The notes under the pieces: generated by a model
Seen by the model: the letters and a program-made list of their open reading frames with translations, nothing else
What the model was told of the DNA's origin: nothing
The model's database searches: none
Shown: positions 12,968 to 55,941 of the stretch, piece after piece
Layout: every line of letters starts with the position of its first letter
How positions within the stretch are numbered: the first letter of the stretch is position 1
Program-made: the position numbers and the translations under genes
NCBI RefSeq assembly: GCF_020151015.1
Contig: NZ_CP083746.1
Coordinates: 2,075,001-2,139,000 of the forward strand
From: Pseudomonas sp. p1(2021b)
GTDB lineage: Bacteria; Pseudomonadota; Gammaproteobacteria; Pseudomonadales; Pseudomonadaceae
DNA: 64,000 nucleotides
Direction of reading: 5' to 3'

Positions 12968-13537
12968 GTGCGCAAACTGGCGGTGGTAATGGCAGTGCTG
13001 GCCCTGGCCGGCTGTGAGAACGAGGTCGAGGGTGTACACAAGCAGGTTGCCGAATACCTGCACAACCCTAAGACGGCCAAGTTCGCCAACGTGCGGATCG
13101 ACACCCAGGGCTCCATCTGCGGCCAGGTCCGCGGCAAGGACGACGCCGGGCAGTACGAGGCATACCGCAGCTACGTGGCGATCAAGCACGACGGCCAGTA
13201 CGAGATCATCGTCGATGAAACCGGCAACAACCTGCGCATTCGCGAAGTGTGCGGCGGTGCCGACCTGCAGCGTCGAGCCGACGCCCTGGCCGACCAGCCG
13301 GCTCCGGAAGGCTGGGATGTGGAGGTGATCCAGGGTGCCAACATGGGCGCACTGAGCGACATGACCGCACGCCTGATCGAGAAGGGCATCCCGTCGTCGG
13401 TCGAGTACCGTGACGGCAAGCCGGTGGTGCTGATGGGGCCGTTCCCCACCAAGGCCGAGGCCGAGGCGCGCAAGGCCGATGTCATGGCGCGCCTGGGCAC
13501 CGATTCGATCGTCATTCAGCACGGCGCCAAGCGTTGA
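12968..13537 (+). CDS. SPOR-domain-like lipoprotein
   Basis: A 189-aa protein starting at GTG, chosen because AGGAGG lies at 12955-12960 with 7-nt spacing. The N-terminus ends in a lipobox LALAGC with Cys16, so it is a lipoprotein. Residues ~115-189 (WDVEVIQGANMGALSDMTARL...VLMGPFPTKAEAEA...) have the SPOR pattern: sequence repeats around GxFxxxxEAE. SPOR domains bind denuded peptidoglycan at the septum. The middle part is unassigned. An extended -10 (TGCTAGAAT) lies upstream at 12931-12939. Confidence 0.75.
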   Translation: MRKLAVVMAVLALAGCENEVEGVHKQVAEYLHNPKTAKFANVRIDTQGSICGQVRGKDDAGQYEAYRSYVAIKHDGQYEIIVDETGNNLRIREVCGGADLQRRADALADQPAPEGWDVEVIQGANMGALSDMTARLIEKGIPSSVEYRDGKPVVLMGPFPTKAEAEARKADVMARLGTDSIVIQHGAKR

Positions 13538-33080: not shown

Positions 33081-33157
33081 CGGGGCGTAGCGCAGCCCGG
33101 TAGCGCACTTGCATGGGGTGCAAGGGGTCGAGTGTTCGAATCACTCCGTCCCGACCA
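33081..33157 (+). tRNA. tRNA-Pro (anticodon GGG), prophage integration site
   Basis: A 77-nt cloverleaf. Acceptor CGGGGCG/CGTCCCG, anticodon arm CTTGC-ATGGGGT-GCAAG (GGG), T loop TTCGAAT, encoded CCA at 3155-3157 of the 30-kb coordinate block (33155-33157). Its 3' half from the anticodon loop onward is repeated, inverted, at 43202-43315, so this is the attachment site of the adjoining prophage. The gene itself is intact. Confidence 0.97.
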
Positions 33158-33237: not shown

Positions 33238-34416
33238 TTACGCCTGCCTCCTCTTCAGAATTGTCAGCACCGGCCCACGCGAGTCCGTCGCTGAAACTTT
33301 GTTTGTCGCCTCTATCAACTGTCCCAGCTCCGCGCCAGAATAGTGGCTGGTCACGCTGCCGTTCTTGTGACCAAGAAGCGACTTCCGATCTTCCTCTGTT
33401 ACACCAGCTGCTTTCAGGCGCCTGCCGAAAGTGTGCTTCAAGTCGTGAACCCTGATAGAAGCGAACCCAGGGTGTGCCGGCCGTAAGTGTTGCTCCTGCC
33501 AGAGCTTTGCCGCGCGCACCCTCGCTTTCTTCCAGGCCGAGTCGTTCATCCTGTGCATGCCGGTGCCGTTGTATGGGAAAACCCATTCCCGGCTTATCCC
33601 CCGCTGCCCGTCTATGATCGACTTGGCCACGCTGTTCAGCACTACCAGGCGCTCGTCCCGGTTCTTCACTCCAGAGTTCTCGTGCCGGCCGCCGAAGTCC
33701 GCAGGTATCAGGAACACGCTAGTGCCCAACTCGGGTACCGAGATCTCCCAGTCCCACCTCAGTTTGCAAACCTCCTGCTCGCGGCAGCCTGTGTTCACCT
33801 TGAACAGGGCCATTCGCTGCAGGTGGTCCGGCAACTCCCCGAAGAGAATCGACTGCTCATCCCAAGACATCGGGTAGGGCTTTCGACTGGATCTCTTCTC
33901 CTCCAGCTTGGTCAGCAGCGGAACGCTGTCGAGCCAAGGCCTGCGCTCCTCATCCCGCCATTTCCGGCAAGCCAGCGACAGCACGCGAATCACTCGCTCG
34001 ATCGCGATGTTCACCGTCCGGTTGCTGACCGCCTTCCTCACTTTCCCATTCGGCAAATCTTCGTCCGTCTGCCGATCCCGAATGAACGGGGCCAGTGCCT
34101 GGTCGTCGATGTGCGTGAGCGGCAGGTCGCCCAGGTATGGATCAAGTTGCTGGAGGCACAGGGCAGTCAGCTTGATTGACGGCTGATCCTTGTGCTCGAG
34201 CAGGTACCTGGTAGCCGCTTCCCGGAACGTCCGAACCTGCCGAACACCATATACTTTGCGTTGGCGGATCTGCTCAAGGCGGTGGATCAGGTACTTTTCT
34301 GCTTCCGCCCGGTCACAAGTTCCAGTGCTTTCGTAAAGTCTCTCGCCGTTGATCCTCTTGTCGATGTGCCAGATGCCGTTCCTTTGGGAAAGGCCTGTGA
34401 TTGTCTTTCGCGCCAT
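33238..34416 (-). CDS. Tyrosine-recombinase phage integrase
   Basis: A 392-aa integrase, convergent with its target tRNA-Pro(GGG). The N-terminal arm-binding region starts MARKTITGLSQRNGIWHIDK. In the catalytic domain the first Arg is in NTGCREQEV, the HxxR box reads HDLKHTFGRRL with Lys in place of the second Arg, LLGHKNG gives the third-box His, and the nucleophile is Tyr in TSHYSGAEL. Lys at the second Arg is unusual but occurs in some Pseudomonas phage integrases as I recall. AGGAG 7 nt upstream fixes the start, which lies 130 bases inside the methyltransferase gene. Confidence 0.92.
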   Translation of the reverse strand: MARKTITGLSQRNGIWHIDKRINGERLYESTGTCDRAEAEKYLIHRLEQIRQRKVYGVRQVRTFREAATRYLLEHKDQPSIKLTALCLQQLDPYLGDLPLTHIDDQALAPFIRDRQTDEDLPNGKVRKAVSNRTVNIAIERVIRVLSLACRKWRDEERRPWLDSVPLLTKLEEKRSSRKPYPMSWDEQSILFGELPDHLQRMALFKVNTGCREQEVCKLRWDWEISVPELGTSVFLIPADFGGRHENSGVKNRDERLVVLNSVAKSIIDGQRGISREWVFPYNGTGMHRMNDSAWKKARVRAAKLWQEQHLRPAHPGFASIRVHDLKHTFGRRLKAAGVTEEDRKSLLGHKNGSVTSHYSGAELGQLIEATNKVSATDSRGPVLTILKRRQA

Positions 34417-35795
34417 CCCTTATCTCCTGATGGGCGCTCGCTGCCAGGTGATTGTCGTCCCTGAGCGCCTTCTTTCGCAATTGCCATGGCCTGGATGTAG
34501 TCGTTCATGCCGCGGGCCGTGGTGGTGTTGAACCCGCCGTTGGCCTGCTCGATGAAGGCTGTGCACATGCCCATGGCATGGGCAGCACCCGCCGGCCGCT
34601 TGTAGTTGCCGCCGCTGGTGATGGTCGGTACCGGTTCGGTGACGGGTGATCCCTCGCTGTTGAACCTGAACTTGACCAGGTGGGCCACTGCCAGCGCGTG
34701 CTTCACCCCGCCGGCGACGACGGTACCTAATGGCTGATCCAGGCCAGGCACACGAGGCTGTTGGCCTTCGCGCTCACCGTAACTGGTTTGGACTAGGGTT
34801 GGACTGGCCATGGCGAAGGATCCACCGCGCGGCCAAGAGGTAACGGTACGTAGCGGCTCGTCGGCAGACTGGGCGAGCTCGCCCGACCAATTCGCGATCG
34901 GCACGATGAAGGGCTGCGGGTTGTCCAGCACGAACTTCTTCATGCCCTTGGCCACCCGGCGCAGAGTTGCGGCTGCAAGCTCCTTCTTGCGCCCGAAGAT
35001 GCTCTTGCTGATGCAGTCAGCAGCGGTGCGCCACTTCTGCTGACCCTTGGCTGGGTTCTTTGCGTGGGTCGGCTCGGGCCACACGATTGGCTGGCCGTCG
35101 CAACGGGCGATCATGAACAGACGTTCCCGGCTGGTCGGCGCGCCAAAGTCGCAGGCCTTGATGATTCGCCATTCCACCTGGTAGCCCATGCCTTCGAGCA
35201 ACTGCACGAACCGCCGCCAGGTAATGCCGCGGCGTTTTGGATCGGGAACCAGGAACTGCTGCTGCACCGGCACGTGCTCGCCGATGGCAGCTACTGTGCC
35301 GTCCAGCTTCATCACCCGGCCGGTGGCCTTGTCGCGCTTGGCGATCAGCTGCCCCCACTGCAGGATCTGTTTCACGTTCTCCAGGCTGATCACACGCGGC
35401 TTCTTCTTGCCGGCCCACTTCAGGCCAATCCACGACAGGTTGCGGATCTCGCGTTTTCGCGGCTGGCCGCCGGCGGCCTGGCTGTGGTGGGTGCAGTCGG
35501 GGCTCATGTGGAACCAGCCCACGGCGCGGCCCTGGCATTCTTCGTCCGGGTCGCCCTCGAAAACGTCGGTGGTGAAGTGGCGAGCCGCCGAGTGGTTGGC
35601 GGTATGCATGCTGATGGCCGCTGGACTGTGGTTCTTGGCCACTGTCACCGGCCGACCCAGGCCCATCTCCAGACCGGTACCGGCACCGCCGCCACCGCAG
35701 AAAAAGTCGACTACGATCTCATCGTCCTGAGGTTCGAAGCCAAGGCCGTACTGGGTTTTGAAGTCGAGATGGTTCTTTTTCTGAAATGCAGACAT
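34287..35795 (-). CDS. Phage-type DNA cytosine-C5 methyltransferase
   Basis: A 502-aa enzyme. Motif I is VVDFFCGGGGAGTGLEMG, motif IV SPDCTHHSQAAGG holds the catalytic Cys (SPDC instead of the usual PPC, common in prophage enzymes), motif VI is VISLENV and motif VIII is near RERLFMIARC. Such genes sit in the early region of temperate phages and protect against host restriction. The last ~43 residues are the antisense-free alternate frame of the integrase start (low-complexity Arg/Ser/Thr), so the natural C-terminus may be lost or the overlap secondary. No cognate restriction gene is seen. Confidence 0.85.
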   Translation of the reverse strand: MSAFQKKNHLDFKTQYGLGFEPQDDEIVVDFFCGGGGAGTGLEMGLGRPVTVAKNHSPAAISMHTANHSAARHFTTDVFEGDPDEECQGRAVGWFHMSPDCTHHSQAAGGQPRKREIRNLSWIGLKWAGKKKPRVISLENVKQILQWGQLIAKRDKATGRVMKLDGTVAAIGEHVPVQQQFLVPDPKRRGITWRRFVQLLEGMGYQVEWRIIKACDFGAPTSRERLFMIARCDGQPIVWPEPTHAKNPAKGQQKWRTAADCISKSIFGRKKELAAATLRRVAKGMKKFVLDNPQPFIVPIANWSGELAQSADEPLRTVTSWPRGGSFAMASPTLVQTSYGEREGQQPRVPGLDQPLGTVVAGGVKHALAVAHLVKFRFNSEGSPVTEPVPTITSGGNYKRPAGAAHAMGMCTAFIEQANGGFNTTTARGMNDYIQAMAIAKEGAQGRQSPGSERPSGDKGWRERQSQAFPKGTASGTSTRGSTARDFTKALELVTGRKQKST

Positions 35796-43201: not shown

Positions 43202-43315
43202 GAGAAGTCACGCAAAAGTCACGCAAATGAAAAAGGCCACTCCTTTCGGAAATGGCCTAAGTCATTGAGGTATATGGTCGGGACGGAGTGATTCGAACAC
43301 TCGACCCCTTGCACC
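43202..43315 (-). repeat. att-type repeat, right copy, inverted
   Basis: Reverse complement of 33117-33231 with about two differences. It holds the tRNA-Pro 3' half (from the anticodon loop to CCA), the terminator and the integrase-proximal spacer. Homology stops at the anticodon loop on one side. From here to 43520 no gene is visible apart from a 24-codon frame at 43317-43391 that I do not trust. Confidence 0.85.
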
Positions 43316-43942: not shown

Positions 43943-45478
43943 TTAAGCAGGCGTCCACTGATGCGGCAACAAGGCCTCGATCTCGCTCGCCCGTTGAGTA
44001 GGCAGTCGTGTCAGCACGTCCTTGAGGTAGGCATACGGATCATGTCCATTCATACGCGCCGACTGGATCAAGCTCATGATCGCAGCCGCGCGTTTGCCAC
44101 TGCGCAGTGATCCAGCAAACAACCAATTGGCACGTCCAAGTGCCCACGGTCGTATTTGGTTCTCGACGTGGTTGTTATCGATGGGCAACGCGCCGTCGTC
44201 CAGGTAGCGCGTCAGCGCTACCCAACGTTTCAAGCTGTAATCGAGAGCCTTGGCGATGGCCGAGCCTTCTGGCACCAGCTCGCGCTGGGTCAGCATCCAG
44301 TCATGCAGTTTTTCAGCGATGGGAACCGCATCCTGCTGACGTATTCGTCGGCGGTCTTCTTCGCTCATGTCCTTGGCCTGTCGTTCGACCTCGTAGAGCG
44401 CACCAATCGTTAGAAGCGCCTGCTCGGCCAACTGACTCTTGTTCGCCGCATGCAAGTCAAAGAACTTGCGGCGCGCATGGGCCATGCAGCCAACCTCGAC
44501 GATGCCTTGTTCGAAACTGGCCTTGTAGCCGGCAAAGTCATCGCACACCAACTTGCCGCGCCAGTCGTCCAGGAAGTTACGCGCATGCTCGCCGGCACGG
44601 CTCGGGCTGAAGTCGTAGACCACGGATTTCAGCTCTGCGTAAGCAGTGCTGCTGTAGGCCCACACATAACTTCGATGGGTTTTCTTTTCACCTGGTGCCA
44701 GCATCTGAACCGGTGTTTCATCGGCATGGATGACCGGTTGCGCCAGCACCGCTTCACGCAGTGCATCGACCAATGGTTGAAGCTGAACACCTGTTTGCCC
44801 AACCCAGCGGGCCAGTGTCGAACGGGGAATGGCCAAGCCGGCGCGGCCAAAGATCTTTTCCTGCCGGTACAGCGGCAGATGGTCAGCGAACTTGGCCACC
44901 ATCACATGGGCCAACAGGCCTGCGGTGGGGATGCCTTTGTCGATGACTTGTGCCGGAACCGGCGCCTGGATCAGGGTTTCGCAAGCTCGGCAGGCCCATT
45001 TGCCACGTACATGCTGCTCGACCGTGAACACACCTGGCGTGTAATCGAGCTTTTCGCTGACATCTTCACCGATGCGTTGAAGCTCGCAGCCACACGCGCA
45101 TTGGGTGTTGTCGGGTTCATGGCGGATAACCGTACGCGGAAGCTGTGCTGGCAGTGGTGCGCGCTTGGGCTTCTGGCTTGGCTCTTTTGGGGCCGGGTCG
45201 GGATGAAGTGCGTTCAGCTCAGCTTCGATGGCCTCAAGGTCGACGTTGAGCAAATCATCGAGCAGACGGCCTTGCTCTGGGCTGATTTGTTCGCTGCGCT
45301 TGGCGTACTTATGGCGTTTGAGAACGGCAATCTCGTGCGTGAGTTGCTCGATGATGATTTTGTCGTTTTGGATCTTGCGACTCATCGCCTCGACTTGAGA
45401 CTGCAATGTCAGCGTCTGCGCGAGCAGCGCACGCAGCTCTGCTGGAGTCAGTTGGTCGAGGTCGGGTAAGGAAGTCAT
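43943..45478 (-). CDS. tnpC: IS66 transposase TnpC
   Basis: A 511-aa DDE transposase. N-terminal leucine-rich coiled coil (LRALLAQTLTLQSQVEAM...), a zinc-binding segment (CACGCELQRIGEDVSEKLDY...CRACE), and the catalytic DDE domain with HADETPVQ, CDDFAGYKA and a final NNHVENQIRPWALGR. Start taken at ATG 45478; the upstream open frame lacks similarity. Full length, no frameshift. Confidence 0.95.
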   Translation of the reverse strand: MTSLPDLDQLTPAELRALLAQTLTLQSQVEAMSRKIQNDKIIIEQLTHEIAVLKRHKYAKRSEQISPEQGRLLDDLLNVDLEAIEAELNALHPDPAPKEPSQKPKRAPLPAQLPRTVIRHEPDNTQCACGCELQRIGEDVSEKLDYTPGVFTVEQHVRGKWACRACETLIQAPVPAQVIDKGIPTAGLLAHVMVAKFADHLPLYRQEKIFGRAGLAIPRSTLARWVGQTGVQLQPLVDALREAVLAQPVIHADETPVQMLAPGEKKTHRSYVWAYSSTAYAELKSVVYDFSPSRAGEHARNFLDDWRGKLVCDDFAGYKASFEQGIVEVGCMAHARRKFFDLHAANKSQLAEQALLTIGALYEVERQAKDMSEEDRRRIRQQDAVPIAEKLHDWMLTQRELVPEGSAIAKALDYSLKRWVALTRYLDDGALPIDNNHVENQIRPWALGRANWLFAGSLRSGKRAAAIMSLIQSARMNGHDPYAYLKDVLTRLPTQRASEIEALLPHQWTPA

Positions 45479-45539
45479 GCCGCCAATTGTGCCAGAGCAC
45501 CGCACTGGCGGCGATTGGCGGTTATGCCAATGGCAAGCA

Positions 45540-45875
45540 CTAAAGCCGTGTGATGGTGCTGTTGGCCCCCATGCGCTGCCAAGGTAACCCCATGATGAGC
45601 GCCTGAAGTTGCTCGCTGTCCAGTTCCACTTGAGCGCCGTGACGAATACCCGGCCAGTGGAATTTACCCTGGTTGAGTCGGCGTGCTGCCAGCCACACGC
45701 CAACGCCGTCATGTACCAGCACCTTTATCCGGTTGGCGCGACGGTTGGCGAAGAGATAAGCGCAGTGCGGCTTCGCCGCACCGAAGACCGCGACAACACG
45801 GGCCAAGGCCGTTTCGGTGCCGGCGCGCATGTCCATGGGCTCGGTGGCCAGCCAGATGGTATCGATACGGATCAT
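45540..45875 (-). CDS. tnpB: IS66 accessory protein TnpB
   Basis: A 111-aa Orf2 protein of IS66 elements (TEPMDMRAGTETALARVVAVF; HCAYLFANRRANRIKVLVHD). Overlaps tnpA by 4 bases. Required with TnpA and TnpC in many IS66 elements; molecular role not established. Confidence 0.93.
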   Translation of the reverse strand: MIRIDTIWLATEPMDMRAGTETALARVVAVFGAAKPHCAYLFANRRANRIKVLVHDGVGVWLAARRLNQGKFHWPGIRHGAQVELDSEQLQALIMGLPWQRMGANSTITRL

Positions 45876-46195
45876 TTGACGAGGCCGCGAATGAAGCGGG
45901 CGCAGCCATCGGGATCGACAGTGGGCCAGATCACTGTGAGTGTGTGTTGTTTGAACGGAATTTCGATACGCGCCAACGTTGGTTGCGCAGGCGCAGATTC
46001 AGTCTTCATCGTCAGCGGCACGAATGCAGGTAACGCGTCAGGTTGGCGGTCACGATAGAGCGGAATCCATTTGCGCACTAGGTTGGCATTGATGCCATGG
46101 CGCAGCGCGATGCTGGCTATCGACACGTCAGGTTGAAGACATTCCTGGACGACTTGGGCTTTGAACGGTTTTGGATAAGAGGTGCGCTGGCGCAT
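45872..46195 (-). CDS. tnpA: IS66 accessory protein TnpA
   Basis: A 107-aa protein with a helix-turn-helix of the transposase Orf1 type (PFKAQVVQECLQPDVSIASIALRHGINANLVRKWI). The ATG at 46195 gives the usual N-terminus MRQRTSYPKPF; a longer frame enters the hairpin upstream. First gene of the tnpABC unit. Confidence 0.9.
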   Translation of the reverse strand: MRQRTSYPKPFKAQVVQECLQPDVSIASIALRHGINANLVRKWIPLYRDRQPDALPAFVPLTMKTESAPAQPTLARIEIPFKQHTLTVIWPTVDPDGCARFIRGLVK

Positions 46196-46209
46196 GGTGA
46201 TCCTTGCGA

Positions 46210-46257
46210 TAAGGGCGATGGTGTCCACGTATTTTTAGGTGGACACCATCGCCCTTA
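46210..46257. repeat. 19-bp-arm hairpin upstream of tnpA inside IS66
   Basis: TAAGGGCGATGGTGTCCAC and its exact reverse complement (46239-46257) flank a 10-nt AT-rich loop. It overlaps the expected tnpA promoter or leader and may limit transcription read-in from the host gene. Confidence 0.85.
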
Positions 46258-49106: not shown

Positions 49107-49658
49107 TCATTGCCAAAGCAGGCCAGGCGCCACAGAGCTTGCCCGTGGACGCGGGTAAGCCTGCTTTCATGAGCGGCACATCGGCGGGGACCTGTGGGAG
49201 ATAACCCAGCCCTTTGGGCTGCGCTGTCGAGCAGAGAACAAGCGGCTAGTGCTGCCCCTGTGGGGGCTTAATCCGCGATCAAGGGCGACGGTGATATCGG
49301 GCCGGGCCTAATCGCGGGACAAGCCCGTACACATTGGATTGCAAAATCAAATGGACCATGTATAGAAGAGTGAACATTTCGTCGCCATTGCCCCCGCGCA
49401 CCTGTTTTTTCTTTCAGGAAAAACAGTGAGTTACCTTTTGTTTGATAAAAGCGGCTTCAACCGCGAACACTGGCGCAGCTAGCGCCATGCCCCGCGTTGG
49501 ATTCTTCGCGGGCGAGCGAGATCTCATGAGTTCTTCGATAACGTGAAGTAGGAACAATGACTGCCGCGATCTTGTAAGTACGGCGTCACGCTTTCGTTGC
49601 TGTCGTTTTGCCTTTAGAATGCGACCAGGTATTTGCAGTAGCAGGGATCGCATCAGGG
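49107..49658. other. Intergenic region with a degenerate REP pair
   Basis: About 550 bases without a supported gene. 49257-49328 holds CCTGTGGGGGCTTAATCCGCGAT and the inverted ATCGCGGGACAAGCCCG, a degraded REP pair. The 200 bases after it are AT-richer and should carry the promoter of the large helicase gene. No operator was recognised. Confidence 0.6.
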
Positions 49659-52600
49659 ATGTCGTCACCTCCCCAACCCAAGAGTTTGGTTATCGACCTA
49701 GAAGTTGCTCCAAGTAAGGCCGGGCAGCCAGATCATATCTTTAAGGTTGGAGCGACGCGACCTGACCTGGGGGTGGAGCTTGATCGTAAGGTCTCGAAAA
49801 ATCTCCCTGAGATTCTCGCTGAAGTCGATGCATTGTCCGATGGGGCAGGCTTCCTTCTGGGGCATAACGTCATCGAGCATGACTTGCCGATCCTCAAGCA
49901 GCAGGCGCCGGAGCTAGCGCTGCATTCACTGCCAGTCATCGACACCTTAAGGCTGTCTCCGCTGGCTTTTCCGCAGAACCCGTATCACCGGCTGGTCAAG
50001 GATTACAAACTAATTCGGGACAGCCTCAACTCGCCGCTTGCAGACTGTCGTTCAACGCTGGTGCTGTTCAGAGATCAGCAAGATGCATTCGCGCAGTTGA
50101 ATGAGACCAATCGTGCTGAGCTGCTCTGCTACCAAGCATTGCTTGCCCCAAGCATAAAGAGCGATCTGGGATCATTTTTCGCTTCGCTAACGGGGCAGAC
50201 TGCAATTTCGATTCCGGATCTTCAGCGGCTCATTCCGAGTCTATTGGCGGAAGCCGATCCATCACTGGATCGTGATCTTAAGGTATGTAGAACTCGACTG
50301 GACGCTCTCCTGGCTGAGGACCTTGCGCAGAAGGATTTACATCTGCCCTTGGCCTATGCCCTTGCGTGGTTAAGGGTGTCGGGGGGCAATTCAGTCCTTG
50401 CTCCTTGGGTGCGGCATCAGTTCTCTGCTGTTGGGCGATTGATTGCTGAGCTCCGGGACGTTCCCTGCGGCCGTTCAGACTGCCGCTACTGCTGCACGAC
50501 CCATGATCCGCGCCATGAGTTGAAGCGCTACTTCGGCTTTGCTGATTTCCGCTACGAACGACCCGGTGAGAGCCTGCAACACGATGTAGTGCTTGCTGGC
50601 ATGCAGGGCAGGCATGTGCTCGCGATCCTGGCAACCGGTGGTGGCAAATCACTGTGCTATCAGCTGCCGGCGCTGAATCGCTTTTATCGAAATGGCAGCC
50701 TGACCATCATTATTTCTCCCTTGCAGTCGCTGATGAAGGACCAGGTCGACGGGCTTCTTGAGCGAAATGTGCAGTGTGCCGCGACGCTCAATGGCTTATT
50801 GACCATGCCTGAGCGTGCTGACGTGCTGGAGAAGATCCAGATGGGCGACGTCGGCATTTTGCTGGTGTCGCCTGAACAGTTTCGAAACAAGGCTTTCCGG
50901 CGTGCGATACGCCAGCGCCAGATCGGAGCTTGGATTTTTGATGAGGCCCACTGCTTGTCGAAATGGGGAAATGATTTCCGCCCGGATTACATGTACGCCT
51001 CGCGCTTCATTCGCGAGCATACAGGCGACCACCCCCTGGCCCCCATTGGCTGCTTCACTGCAACGGCTAAGCCGGATGTGTTGGCTGACATCCGTGCGCA
51101 TTTCAAGGAAAGTCTCGGGATTGAGTTTGATCAGTTCCTGGGGACCCATGAGCGAACGAATCTTAGCTTTGAAGTACTGCCCTGCAGTCGAGGCGAGAAA
51201 TGGCCAAGAACCCATCAGCTGCTTGAGGATCACCTCGGAAGCCAGGACGGTGGTGCGGTTGTTTTCGTTGCAAGCCGCAAGGGTGCTGAAGAGCTTTCAG
51301 CGTTTCTGGTCGGGCAAGGATGGCCGTGCCGCCATTTTCACGCCGGGCTTGAGCCCAATGACAAGAAAGATATTCAGGACGACTTCAAGGCCGGGCGGCT
51401 CCGCATCATCGTCGCCACCAATGCCTTTGGCATGGGCGTCGACAAATCCGATATCCGCTTGGTAGTTCACGCAGACATTCCTGGTTCGCTGGAAAACTAC
51501 CTTCAAGAGGCAGGCAGGGCAGGGCGCGACCAGGATGCAGCACGCTGTGTGCTGCTTTATGACTCGCAGGATATTGAGACCCAGTTTGGGTTATGCGAGC
51601 GCTCTAAGCTCAGCCTCCGTGACATCCAACAAATTCTCCGCAAGCTGCGTTTCGAGTATGCCAGGCGTAAGGGCGGCGAGCTGGTCATCACCGCCGGCGA
51701 GATTCTCATGGATGAGACCGTCGAGACCTCGTTCGACGCTGCTGACAGTGATGCCGAAACCAAAGTGGTCACCGCAGTTGCTTGGCTGGAACGAGGGCAA
51801 TACCTCAAACGGGAGGAAAACAGCACACAGATTTTTCCGGCACGTCTGAGCCTGAGCGAATCGGAGGCCGAGCAGCGTTTGCTCAAGGCCAATCTCTCGG
51901 AGCGGCGCCGTGAGGAGTTTGGCGCAATTTTGAAATATCTCTACCAAGCCGACGCAGATGAGCGGGTGAATACAGACAACCTGATGTCGCTCACCAGCCT
52001 AACGTCTGAGGAAGTCATTAGTACCCTAAAGCAGATGGAAGAACTGGGGTTGCTCGTCAACGACACACAATTGACCGTATTGCTGCGTCACGGCGTGGTG
52101 GGGGCTTCCATTCAGCGCTTGGAGCAGACCTTGGCATTAGAGGAGGCGCTGTTCGAAGTACTCAGCGAACTGGCGCCGGATGCCGAGGATGGTACTTGGC
52201 AGGATCTCAACCTCGCCGCTCTCACGGCGGGACTTAAAGCCAGACTAGAGCAGGAGGAAGTCATTCCGTTGCAGGTGCTTCGCCTGCTGCGTAGCCTCTC
52301 TCAAGATCGTGAAAGCAACAGCCAGCCGCGTAGCAGTTTTGAGCTCAAACAGGTCAATCACGATTACATCAAGCTGAAGATTCAAGGTAAGTACAGCTGG
52401 TCACAGATTGAGCGTTTTGGTGAAAAGCGCCGAATCATTGCCAGCAAGCTGCTTCAGTTCTTGATTGGAAAGCTGGCGCCGGCCTCCAAGGGCAAGGATC
52501 TGATGGTGCAGTCCACCTTCGGTGAGTTGGTCGGTGTGATCGAGTCGGACCTGGAGCTATCACAGGTCATCCCCCCGAACCAACGTCACAGAGCAATTGA

Positions 52601-54788
52601 GCATGTGCTGTTGTACCTGCACAAGCAGGATGTGTTGACGCTCAATCACGGGATGACGGTGATGCGTCGGGCAATGACCATTGAGGTAAACGCAGACAAG
52701 AAGGGCAGCTACCTCAAAGACGATTATCTGCGTCTCGATGAGCATTACAGCGAGAAGCGTATCCAGGTCCATGTGATGCGTGAGTATGCCGAGGTCGCAC
52801 TCGGCGCCATGGCGAGTGCGCTGGAGCTGGTGCTGCACTATTTCACGGACTCAAAAGATGCCTTTTTGCAGCGCTATTTCGCTGGCCGCGAAGAGGTGCT
52901 TAAGCATGCCACCAGTGAAGAGTCCTGGAGATCCATTGTTGAGGATCTAAGCACTCAACAGCGACTCATTGTGATCGATGACGACGACGTTAATCGCTTG
53001 GTGTTGGCAGGGCCAGGATCTGGCAAAACTCGCGTAATCGTTCACCGTATCGCTTATTTGCTGCGTGTCCGGCGGATTCCAGCCAATGCCATTGTGGCGT
53101 TGACCTTCAATCGGCATGCGGCCAATGAAATTCGTAAGCGTCTTTTGAGTCTGGTTGGAGCTGATGCCTACGGTGTCAGCGTCATGACCTATCACAGTAT
53201 GGCCATGCGCCTGACGGGCACTCGCTTTGAGCGTAGGGATGTTGTTGACGAAAGGGCTCTGAAACAGGTCCTGGAGGACGCTGTTGAGCTTTTGGAGGGT
53301 AAGGGAACTGCCGATGGCGAGGATGACCTGCGTGAGCAGTTGTTACGTGGCTACCGCTACATCCTGGTTGATGAATACCAAGACATCGATGCCCTGCAAT
53401 ACCGTTTGGTGAGTGCGCTTGCAGGTAGGCAGTCCAGTGAGGAAGGGCGTTTGTGCATTTTGGCGGTGGGGGACGATGATCAGAATATCTACGCTTGGCG
53501 CGACACCAACAACCGATACATCGAACGCTTTCGCGAGGATTACTCCGCCGCTACCAGCTATCTTGTCGAGAACTATCGCTCGACTCAACGCATTATTGCC
53601 GCCGCAAATCAGCTGGTCGGCAACAACCCTGGGCGCCTGAAAGCGTCCTATCCCATCCGAATCAACCGGGAGCGCCAGTCGAATCCTCTCGGTGGTCAGT
53701 GGCAGACGCTCGATTCAGGTCGATCTGGGCGGGTTACGCGACTGGCCGTTGAATCCAGCGATAGAGCTGTTGGCAACCTTCAGGCGCAGGCTGCTATACG
53801 CGAACTCAAGCGACTGCTGGCACTGGAAGAGGGTAGCTGGAGTGGATGCGCTATTCTTGCCCGTACCCATCAGTATCTGTGGCCAGTCCAGGCGCTTTGC
53901 GAGCTTGCCGGAGTTCCGTACTTTCTGGCCTCGGATAAAGACAGTGCGCTGCCCATCACTCGGCAGCGTGATTTCGTGGCGGTTGTTGATCGACTTCGAG
54001 AAGTCAACGAGGCGCTTTCGGCTGCTATGGCATGGCAGCAGGTGTCTGCTGGGGTGAGTGAGAGCTGGCGTAGCTTTTTCCAGGAGGCTTTCACCCAATT
54101 GCAGGTCGAGCTGGGTGAGTGCCAGCTCAACAGTGCTGCAATCGTGGACTGGCTCTATGACTACGCTCGGGAGATGCGGCAGCAGGCCAGGAGTGGCCTG
54201 TATCTGGGCACGGTACATTCAGCGAAAGGCCTAGAGTTCAGGCATGTCGTTCTGCTTGATGGTGGCTGGAATGTTCAGACTGAGGGGCTTAACGATGAAC
54301 GCCGGTTGTACTACGTGGGTATGACGCGCGCAGAGCAGACGCTGACGCTGTGTGAGTTCAGTGCAGCGAATCCTTTCAGTGGGAGTCTGTCGGCTGACAT
54401 CGCGCAGCAGACCTTTACCGGCGATTACAGTGCAGCCTTGGAGCGGCGTTACCTGCAGCTCAGTCTGAAAGACATCGATATCGGCTTTGCCGGACGTAGC
54501 TCTGCAACAGACCCCATCCATGAGGCACTGAGGTGCTTGGAGCCGGGAGCGGAGCTGAAGCTTGAAAAACAGGGCGACCGCTACCTGATATGGGATGGTC
54601 AGGGGCGAGTTGTCGGGCGGACTTCTCAGTCTTTTAAGCTGGATCTTGAGGTTGAGCGATGCGAGGTTGCGGGTGTGGTAGTTCGGTTCCTGGAGGACAG
54701 CGAGGAACAGTATCGGTCTCTGCAGAAATGCGAGCGCTGGGCGATCGTTGTTCCAAGGGTTTGTGGACTGCCCCTGCCTGCGCTGTAG
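49659..54788 (+). CDS. Giant fusion: DnaQ-like exonuclease domain, RecQ helicase and UvrD/PcrA helicase
   Basis: A 1709-aa protein. Residues ~8-145 form a DEDD exonuclease fold: Asp13-x-Glu15 (IDLEV), Asp75 (GHNVIEHD) and Asp129 (PLADC). Position 124, where DEDDh enzymes have His, is Asn. A Cys cluster (CGRSDCRYCC) follows near 285. A RecQ-type SF2 helicase then has Walker A ATGGGKS (Lys330), DEAH (428-431), CFTATAK and QEAGRAGR (616-623), followed by winged-helix-like and linker regions. A UvrD-type SF1 helicase has GPGSGKT (Lys1123), DEYQD (1238-1242), GDDDQNIYAWR, ENYRST, TVHSAKGLEF and YVGMTRAE. Both motors look intact. Starts at ATG 49659 because no better site exists; upstream TTG 49608 is possible. 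It is a stand-alone gene next to a mobile-element zone. DNA repair or anti-phage defence is inferred. Confidence 0.9.
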   Translation: MSSPPQPKSLVIDLEVAPSKAGQPDHIFKVGATRPDLGVELDRKVSKNLPEILAEVDALSDGAGFLLGHNVIEHDLPILKQQAPELALHSLPVIDTLRLSPLAFPQNPYHRLVKDYKLIRDSLNSPLADCRSTLVLFRDQQDAFAQLNETNRAELLCYQALLAPSIKSDLGSFFASLTGQTAISIPDLQRLIPSLLAEADPSLDRDLKVCRTRLDALLAEDLAQKDLHLPLAYALAWLRVSGGNSVLAPWVRHQFSAVGRLIAELRDVPCGRSDCRYCCTTHDPRHELKRYFGFADFRYERPGESLQHDVVLAGMQGRHVLAILATGGGKSLCYQLPALNRFYRNGSLTIIISPLQSLMKDQVDGLLERNVQCAATLNGLLTMPERADVLEKIQMGDVGILLVSPEQFRNKAFRRAIRQRQIGAWIFDEAHCLSKWGNDFRPDYMYASRFIREHTGDHPLAPIGCFTATAKPDVLADIRAHFKESLGIEFDQFLGTHERTNLSFEVLPCSRGEKWPRTHQLLEDHLGSQDGGAVVFVASRKGAEELSAFLVGQGWPCRHFHAGLEPNDKKDIQDDFKAGRLRIIVATNAFGMGVDKSDIRLVVHADIPGSLENYLQEAGRAGRDQDAARCVLLYDSQDIETQFGLCERSKLSLRDIQQILRKLRFEYARRKGGELVITAGEILMDETVETSFDAADSDAETKVVTAVAWLERGQYLKREENSTQIFPARLSLSESEAEQRLLKANLSERRREEFGAILKYLYQADADERVNTDNLMSLTSLTSEEVISTLKQMEELGLLVNDTQLTVLLRHGVVGASIQRLEQTLALEEALFEVLSELAPDAEDGTWQDLNLAALTAGLKARLEQEEVIPLQVLRLLRSLSQDRESNSQPRSSFELKQVNHDYIKLKIQGKYSWSQIERFGEKRRIIASKLLQFLIGKLAPASKGKDLMVQSTFGELVGVIESDLELSQVIPPNQRHRAIEHVLLYLHKQDVLTLNHGMTVMRRAMTIEVNADKKGSYLKDDYLRLDEHYSEKRIQVHVMREYAEVALGAMASALELVLHYFTDSKDAFLQRYFAGREEVLKHATSEESWRSIVEDLSTQQRLIVIDDDDVNRLVLAGPGSGKTRVIVHRIAYLLRVRRIPANAIVALTFNRHAANEIRKRLLSLVGADAYGVSVMTYHSMAMRLTGTRFERRDVVDERALKQVLEDAVELLEGKGTADGEDDLREQLLRGYRYILVDEYQDIDALQYRLVSALAGRQSSEEGRLCILAVGDDDQNIYAWRDTNNRYIERFREDYSAATSYLVENYRSTQRIIAAANQLVGNNPGRLKASYPIRINRERQSNPLGGQWQTLDSGRSGRVTRLAVESSDRAVGNLQAQAAIRELKRLLALEEGSWSGCAILARTHQYLWPVQALCELAGVPYFLASDKDSALPITRQRDFVAVVDRLREVNEALSAAMAWQQVSAGVSESWRSFFQEAFTQLQVELGECQLNSAAIVDWLYDYAREMRQQARSGLYLGTVHSAKGLEFRHVVLLDGGWNVQTEGLNDERRLYYVGMTRAEQTLTLCEFSAANPFSGSLSADIAQQTFTGDYSAALERRYLQLSLKDIDIGFAGRSSATDPIHEALRCLEPGAELKLEKQGDRYLIWDGQGRVVGRTSQSFKLDLEVERCEVAGVVVRFLEDSEEQYRSLQKCERWAIVVPRVCGLPLPAL

Positions 54789-55032: not shown

Positions 55033-55941
55033 ATGCAAACGCTGTTGAACGAAATTCTCGACGAAGTGCGTCCCTTGATCGGCAAGGGCAAAGTGGCTGA
55101 CTACATCCCCGCGCTGGCCGATGTCCCGGCGAACCGGCTGGGCATCGCGGTCTATGGCAACGATGGCAGCTATTACTGCGCAGGCGACGCGCGGGTGTCG
55201 TTTTCGGTGCAGAGCATTTCCAAGGTGTTCAGCCTGGTTCAGGCGATTGGCCACTCGGGGGAGGCGATCTGGGAACGGTTGGGTCATGAGCCCTCGGGCC
55301 AGCCGTTCAACTCACTGGTGCAGCTGGAATTCGAGCGCGGGCGTCCGCGTAATCCCTTCATCAACGCGGGGGCACTGGTGATTTGCGATATCAACCAATC
55401 GCGCTTCGCGGCACCTACGTTGTCGATGCGCGATTTCGTACGTCGGTTGTCGGGCAACCCGCATATTTCAATCGATACCCGTGTGGCTGAATCGGAGTAT
55501 CAGTTCCGCGCACGCAACGCGGCCATGGCCTATCTGATGCAATCGTTCGGTAACTTCCATAACGAAGTCGAGGCGGTGCTGCGCAGTTATTTCAGCTATT
55601 GCGCGCTGCAGATGAATTGCCTGGATCTAGCCCGGGCATTCTGTTTCCTGGCCAATGATGGGTACTGCAAGCACAGTGGTAACCAGATCTTGACCCAACG
55701 CCAAACTCAGCAGGTGAATTCGATCATGGCCACCAGCGGGCTCTATGACGAAGCCGGCAACTTCGCTTATCGGGTAGGGTTGCCTGGCAAGAGTGGTGTA
55801 GGTGGCGGGATCGTGGCGATCGTACCGGGCCAATTCACCGTTTGCGTGTGGTCGCCGGAGTTGAATGCTGCTGGTAACTCCCTTGCCGGGATGGCCGCGC
55901 TCGAGTTGCTCAGCTCACGGATTGGGTGGTCGGTGTTCTGA
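55033..55941 (+). CDS. glsA: Glutaminase (serine beta-lactamase-like fold, GlsA type)
   Basis: A 302-aa cytoplasmic glutaminase. The catalytic SxxK is in [12 protein letters not shown] near residue 60, and [25 protein letters not shown] and [18 protein letters not shown] are family blocks. It converts Gln to Glu and ammonia. AAGG lies just before the ATG. Confidence 0.95.

Follow-up and report, generated by a model that had tools for sequence, protein, structure and literature searches.

The window analysed here is a stretch of 64,000 nucleotides from Pseudomonas sp. p1(2021b) (contig NZ_CP083746.1). On its forward strand, positions 49608-54788 form one open frame, in which an ATG at 49659, in agreement with the N-termini of homologues, gives a stop-free translation of 1709 residues (Table 1). 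The initial annotation had described this product as an exonuclease fold, a RecQ motor and a UvrD motor joined in a single chain. The reading frame bears this out, as it is uninterrupted and both motors are complete. The search for full-length homologues that had been proposed recovered the protein in one frame, with more than 1500 residues aligned, at 66 of 80 genome loci. Such full-length relatives rule out a chance frame or an assembly fusion. The exonuclease-like-RecQ-UvrD architecture is conserved and widespread.

Table 1. Features of the gene and its surroundings (window coordinates).
Feature	Positions	Strand	Remarks
Whole gene	49659..54788	+	1709 aa; exonuclease-like - RecQ - connector - UvrD - C-terminal domain
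DEDD (DnaQ-like) fold	49683..50108	+	residues 9-150; metal ligands D13, E15, D75, D129
Asn124 codon	50028..50030	+	where DEDDh exonucleases carry their catalytic His
Cys-rich motif	50466..50504	+	C270, C275, C278; H282 less conserved
RecQ core	50490..51626	+	residues 278-656; SF2 motor
Connector	51627..52928	+	residues 657-1090 (~430 aa); predicted mostly helices with beta hairpins
UvrD motor	52941..54398	+	about residues 1095-1580; SF1
C-terminal domain	54426..54785	+	about residues 1590-1709; beta-rich
Island-like stretch	32000-60000		GC 0.54-0.61; flanks 0.65-0.67
tRNA-Pro 3' end	33117-33157		41 bp
C5 DNA methylase	34287-35795		identified by eye
Inverted copy of tRNA-Pro 3' end	43275-43315		10 kb downstream of the first
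IS66-like element	43943-46228		identified by eye; 3.4 kb upstream of the gene
Glutaminase-like gene	55033-55941		identified by eye; directly downstream of the gene

Around the gene, the GC content is about 0.55; at 60-64 kb and at 30-32 kb of the window, it amounts to 0.65-0.67. The two tRNA-Pro repeats bound a stretch with phage-like genes, among them the C5 DNA methylase. The glutaminase-like gene itself occurs in 11 of the 19 relatives searched, the window's own included. It was used to look for an empty site; none was found, the 1.5-kb flanks in relatives sharing no clear neighbour with the window.

By curated cut-offs, the protein classifies as RecQ-family and UvrD-type and as a housekeeping member of neither. 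All Pfam motor domains score above their cut-offs (DEAD at residues 306-474, Helicase_C at 522-624, the N-terminal UvrD domain from 1100 and the C-terminal one to 1565), with 145.4 versus 23 for PF00580 and 56.2 versus 25.6 for PF13361. The RecQ family model TIGR00614 is passed with 277.8 bits (cut-off 219.8), and the housekeeping RecQ equivalog TIGR01389 is failed with 323.8 bits of the 640.2 required. The UvrD, PcrA and Rep equivalogs are likewise failed (175.1 versus 1144, 183.3 versus 911 and 161.9 versus 951 bits, respectively). These scores, together with ordinary RecQ, UvrD and Rep encoded elsewhere in the host genome, rule out a housekeeping RecQ or UvrD. The core ATPase motifs that had been reported for both motors are present: the residues examined in Walker A, in Walker B and at the arginine fingers are invariant in the query and 77 relatives, with one gap, at R1557. 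Walker A includes K330 in the RecQ motor and K1123 in the UvrD motor. After the RecQ core, neither RQC nor HRDC was found as a Pfam family at E <= 1, a result compatible with a divergent winged helix. The connector that follows possibly consists of winged-helix modules, and metal binding by the Cys-rich motif would be a guess. For the C-terminal domain, the sole profile matches are to ribosomal proteins (E >= 0.19), an identity that we disbelieve.

The N-terminal domain required more sensitive comparisons. Its exonuclease fold was not detected in the Pfam scan of the query protein, and the Foldseek/VIA lists for residues 1-760 contained RecQ-type cores only, so that they barely tested this fold. 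Scanned one by one, 4 of 46 relatives matched Pfam RNase_T, with a best E-value of 0.087, too weak by itself. On the other hand, profile-profile comparison of the 46 N-domains with six RNase_T-family exonucleases of the host gave a probability of 93.7% over columns 10-133 (E 2e-7), and the C-terminal domain, taken as a control, reached 0.1%. In addition, the five best PDB profile matches of the N-domain are DEDD exonucleases (E 0.0014-0.01), DinG included; matches to gp120 were put down to chance. The predicted strand and helix order, in which the first strand carries D13 and E15 and the helix 126-150 carries D129, is that of DnaQ.

Residues were counted over 198 partly redundant rows (121 database proteins, query included, and 77 locus proteins). 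The four acidic DEDD metal ligands are invariant in every row that reaches them: D13 and E15 in 196 rows with 2 gaps, D75 in 197 with 1 gap, D129 in all 198. K114 and P126 are also found in 198 rows, and H110 in 197. At position 124, five residues before the last Asp, Asn (182), Ser (11) or Ala (5) is observed and never His; at position 125, four residues before it, Ser (152), Asp (35), Asn (10) or His (1) and never Tyr. The nuclease part of the initial annotation is thereby weakened: the DEDD fold and its metal ligands are present, but the catalytic His of DEDDh enzymes, expected at position 124, is missing. Because this residue is absent in all 198 rows, 3'-5' exonuclease activity of the N-domain is doubtful. 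With the metal site under strong selection and the usual general base gone, either catalysis would differ or the domain would bind without cutting; it may bind or sense DNA instead of cutting it. The invariant metal site without a catalytic His is the main addition to the earlier account.

The overall outline most resembles Gabija or Hachiman, and the first half resembles human WRN; the defining features of Gabija and WRN that were tested are not found. In WRN, an exonuclease fold precedes the RecQ core in the same order, and the RecQ part matched WRN cores, among others, in structural comparison. WRN carries an N-terminal exonuclease of DEDDy type; here, the Tyr of such enzymes never occupies position 125 in the 198 rows, RQC and HRDC were not found, and a connector and a UvrD motor are added. 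DinG likewise carries its DEDD domain in front of a helicase on the same polypeptide and is a PDB profile match of the N-domain (8zef_A, E 0.0043); in our protein, the helicase after this domain is RecQ, and a second motor, of SF1, follows. The best PADLOC matches (best 25 of 81 families) span single motors only, DpdF and PsyrT on RecQ and GajB on UvrD. DpdF (E 3.6e-100) and the PsyrT/RqlH-like RecQ proteins (PsyrT, 3.1e-79) match the RecQ core, with the exonuclease fold and the UvrD half outside the match and no recurrent partner here. Gabija shares the pairing of a nuclease fold with a UvrD motor, and the UvrD half matches GajB models with a best E-value of 2.5e-50. As described in the literature consulted, Gabija and Hachiman both split nuclease and motor over two proteins. 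In contrast, our protein is a single chain with RecQ added, and no GajA-type partner recurs when the neighbours at 91 loci are clustered. At one locus (L042), a Gabija system adjoins the fusion gene. The likeness to Hachiman concerns the proposed way of working only, in which a helicase senses abnormal 3'-ended DNA, helicase-led sensing being what PMC12278908 describes; Hachiman consists of two proteins, the HamA nuclease and the HamB sensor helicase, with one motor.

The protein is a new combination of known parts. No description of an exonuclease-like-RecQ-UvrD protein was found in the literature searched, which left out most subscription papers and included PMC5512222, PMC9122126, PMC11078745, PMC11536983 and PMC12278908. 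A conserved family that unites a DEDD fold and two motors in one chain, present in several phyla, appears to be unstudied. It would offer a simple, single-gene test case of the way in which bacteria distinguish their own DNA from invading or damaged DNA, and its metal site poses a concrete puzzle.

The gene is accessory, rare and horizontally transferred between species. It is present in 10 of 249 genomes of the genus, 9 of 369 of the class and 15 of 398 of the phylum (the window's own counted in each), always in single copy per carrier, with one genus copy split over two contigs. The initial annotation had set a conserved core-genome position against a defence role; such a distribution is not that of a core gene. 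No DNA-level match was found in E. coli genomes, a test with little reach at such divergence. An N-domain profile run against the GTDB species genomes yielded at least 537 relatives. The best 80, which were kept, come from Pseudomonadota and Desulfobacterota and from single MAGs labelled Acidobacteria, Verrucomicrobia and SAR324. Most of the loci read lie on chromosomes. Plasmids provided 64 matching records at E <= 1e-50, 21 of them spanning 80% or more of the query, from Alpha- and Gammaproteobacteria, Bacteroidota and Cyanobacteria. The six matches in phage records concern the RecQ core only. Among viral contigs, two carry the whole protein (L019 and L110) and in the other 36 rows the match is short and lies in the N-domain (E 5e-8 to 7e-5).

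In a tree of about 34 chosen sequences, the betaproteobacterium Nitrosomonas europaea forms a pair with Pseudomonas mendocina (support 1.000). Their cluster also takes in an Alcaligenaceae MAG (support 1.000), and a sequence from Stutzerimonas nests with the window's protein. The window's protein shares 74% identity with its N. europaea relative and 63% with that of P. farsensis.

Besides the 66 intact copies, the 80 genome loci include six that are cut by a contig end (L064, L069, L080, L089, L093, L108), one in two frames that stops at a contig end (L073) and six that appear broken: L033 by an internal deletion, L034 over three frames, L040, L070 and L106 over two frames each, and L046. At L046, an IS66-like gene (by eye) directly follows the cut copy. 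At L106, a short MITE-like insert with inverted ends (13300-13400) splits the gene at about residue 1092, which rules out a natural two-gene version divided at the RecQ-UvrD junction. The remaining locus, from Lautropia (L076:9584-15937), encodes one frame of 2118 aa, in which roughly 400 additional residues stand near position 673.

To find partners, 891 neighbour proteins from the 91 loci were clustered by BLAST (E 1e-8, alignment over half or more of the longer protein). No recurrent partner gene emerged among them, within the limits of a simple gene caller that very small or fast-changing partners could escape. The largest clusters, from 8 and 7 loci, resemble SDR dehydrogenases and ABC transporters (by eye), and no mobile-element gene recurs beside the family. 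The gene therefore looks like a one-gene unit, in line with the earlier view that it stands alone.

The tabulation of defence neighbours that had been suggested was carried out with PADLOC (E <= 1e-25) on proteins within ~6 kb of the gene at 42 loci, the window's own neighbours being left out. Test windows measured ~11.7-12 kb, shorter at contig ends. The controls were 40 stretches of the same contigs at blind round coordinates (24 of 11.7 kb, the other 16-17 of 9 kb), random rather than matched to island genes; one of them (L182) had zero called genes. PADLOC families numbered 86 in test pool A7 (12 loci, 85 proteins), 7 in A8 (12 loci, 105 proteins) and 47 in A14 (18 loci, 131 proteins), versus 5 in control pool A9 (11 loci, 92 proteins), 53 in A10 (12 loci, 100 proteins) and 2 in A15 (16 loci, 117 proteins). 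The best 25 families per pool were considered, which bears on A7, A14 and A10, further matches existing on both sides. By identity, 31 loci are closer to the window's protein (58% or more) and 11 distant (under 50%); L062 (47%) belongs to pool A14, and L055 and L056 (60-64%) to A8. The choice of proteins and the label "established" were judged by eye and not blind.

Established defence genes were found at 8 of the 31 closer loci, none of the 11 distant ones and at least 2 of the 40 controls. The eight comprise Mokosh MkoB (L030), type III restriction and ZacA (L031), type IV restriction and MkoC (L035), Septu PtuA (L037), Gabija (L042), BREX and Mokosh (L047), SIR2 and a type I methylase (L050) and Zorya ZorA (L058). 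At L035 and L047, Mokosh-related giants of 1712-1731 aa (L035:15168-20363, L047:15122-20260) begin 10-59 bp past the gene on the same strand. A methyltransferase (L032), a partial HEC-06 (L038), the candidate PDC-S36 (L063 and L034) and one PDC-S05 and one PDC-S71 match without an assigned locus were not counted as established. Matches deemed generic were mad3, RtcR, WYL, weak PglW, DrmD and PDC-S55 in the test pools, and MTase_II (5e-26) and RtcR regulators (A9), PD-T4-6 kinases, mad6 and weak MkoA (A10), and mad3 and PDC-S07 (A15) in the controls. The control count includes Gabija (A10) and a DpdF-model match (A9, 1.9e-90), which is not explained away since no A9 protein resembles host RecQ.

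With two control stretches counted, the excess has a one-sided Fisher p of 0.015 for the closer loci and 0.052 for all 42 (8/42). At E <= 1e-90, where 7 loci remain, p is 0.032 for the closer loci and 0.089 overall (7/42 versus 2/40). The rows are not independent, as L030 and L031 are close relatives. The tabulation points to an excess near the closer relatives and to a marginal one over all 42 loci, its strength varying with the criterion applied (p 0.015 to 0.09). Proximity to defence genes shows island location, no more.

Ten plasmid neighbourhoods were read, eight of them from the 21 near-full-length records and without plasmid controls. Four carry annotated or likely defence genes, namely type I-D CRISPR, type I restriction, a NERD protein with DEAD helicases, and viperin. 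Some of the six others carry toxin-antitoxin genes.

Our tentative proposal is that the gene encodes a horizontally mobile, single-gene DNA-surveillance helicase acting against phage or other invading DNA. Defence, as suggested in the initial annotation, would be the single likeliest role, at somewhat less than even confidence. It accords with the patchy, transferred and partly plasmid-borne distribution, the one-gene unit, the defence neighbours of closer relatives and of 4 of the 10 plasmid copies, the strong conservation of both motors and the metal site, the presence of the gene in addition to host RecQ, UvrD and Rep, and the precedent that Hachiman sets for helicase-led sensing of abnormal DNA. 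Against it stand the absence of assigned established defence neighbours at the distant loci, 6 of 10 plasmid copies without defence genes, an excess that is marginal overall and controls that are random.

The next most probable role, which we regard as possible though rather unlikely, is that of an accessory DNA-repair or fork-processing enzyme, WRN-like with an added UvrD motor, serving damage tolerance instead of phage defence and disseminated on islands and plasmids. In favour of this role, both RecQ and UvrD belong to repair families, the DEDD fold also precedes an SF2 helicase in DinG, and many copies, those at the 11 distant loci included, have no assigned defence neighbour. A repair enzyme fits less well with so patchy a gene, which most relatives lack, with its being extra to the ordinary host helicases and with the existence of decayed copies.

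In the surveillance helicase that we favour, the DEDD-fold domain and the connector would recognise 3'-ended or branched DNA, such as forks, gaps, D-loops or exposed ends, and the RecQ (SF2) and UvrD (SF1) motors would open and remodel it. We infer from family membership that both motors run 3'-5'. A chain with two 3'-5' motors cannot have both move forward together along opposite strands as RecB and RecD do; one would thus load on the exposed 3' strand while the other acts on another arm of the fork or D-loop and opens it. The N-terminal domain, placed at the 3' end, would either use its metal site to trim that end or hold it, the usual catalytic His being lost, and this loss argues against plain nuclease action. 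Such a scheme fits the sensing of abnormal DNA described for Hachiman. As an outcome, invading replication intermediates would be disrupted. A more specific version, to which we give a little less weight than to repair, would be a widespread, undescribed single-gene immune machine, a one-protein counterpart of Gabija or Hachiman, whose base-less DEDD domain would be a conserved 3'-end or junction sensor feeding the two 3'-5' motors.

Improbable, in our view, is cargo of a plasmid or island that serves the element's own replication, transfer or stabilisation with defence genes as fellow passengers: plasmid copies do adjoin partition, SSB or topoisomerase genes, and our controls were not other island genes, but the gene is mostly chromosomal, no mobile-element gene recurs alongside, and its neighbours are diverse systems with no repeated block.
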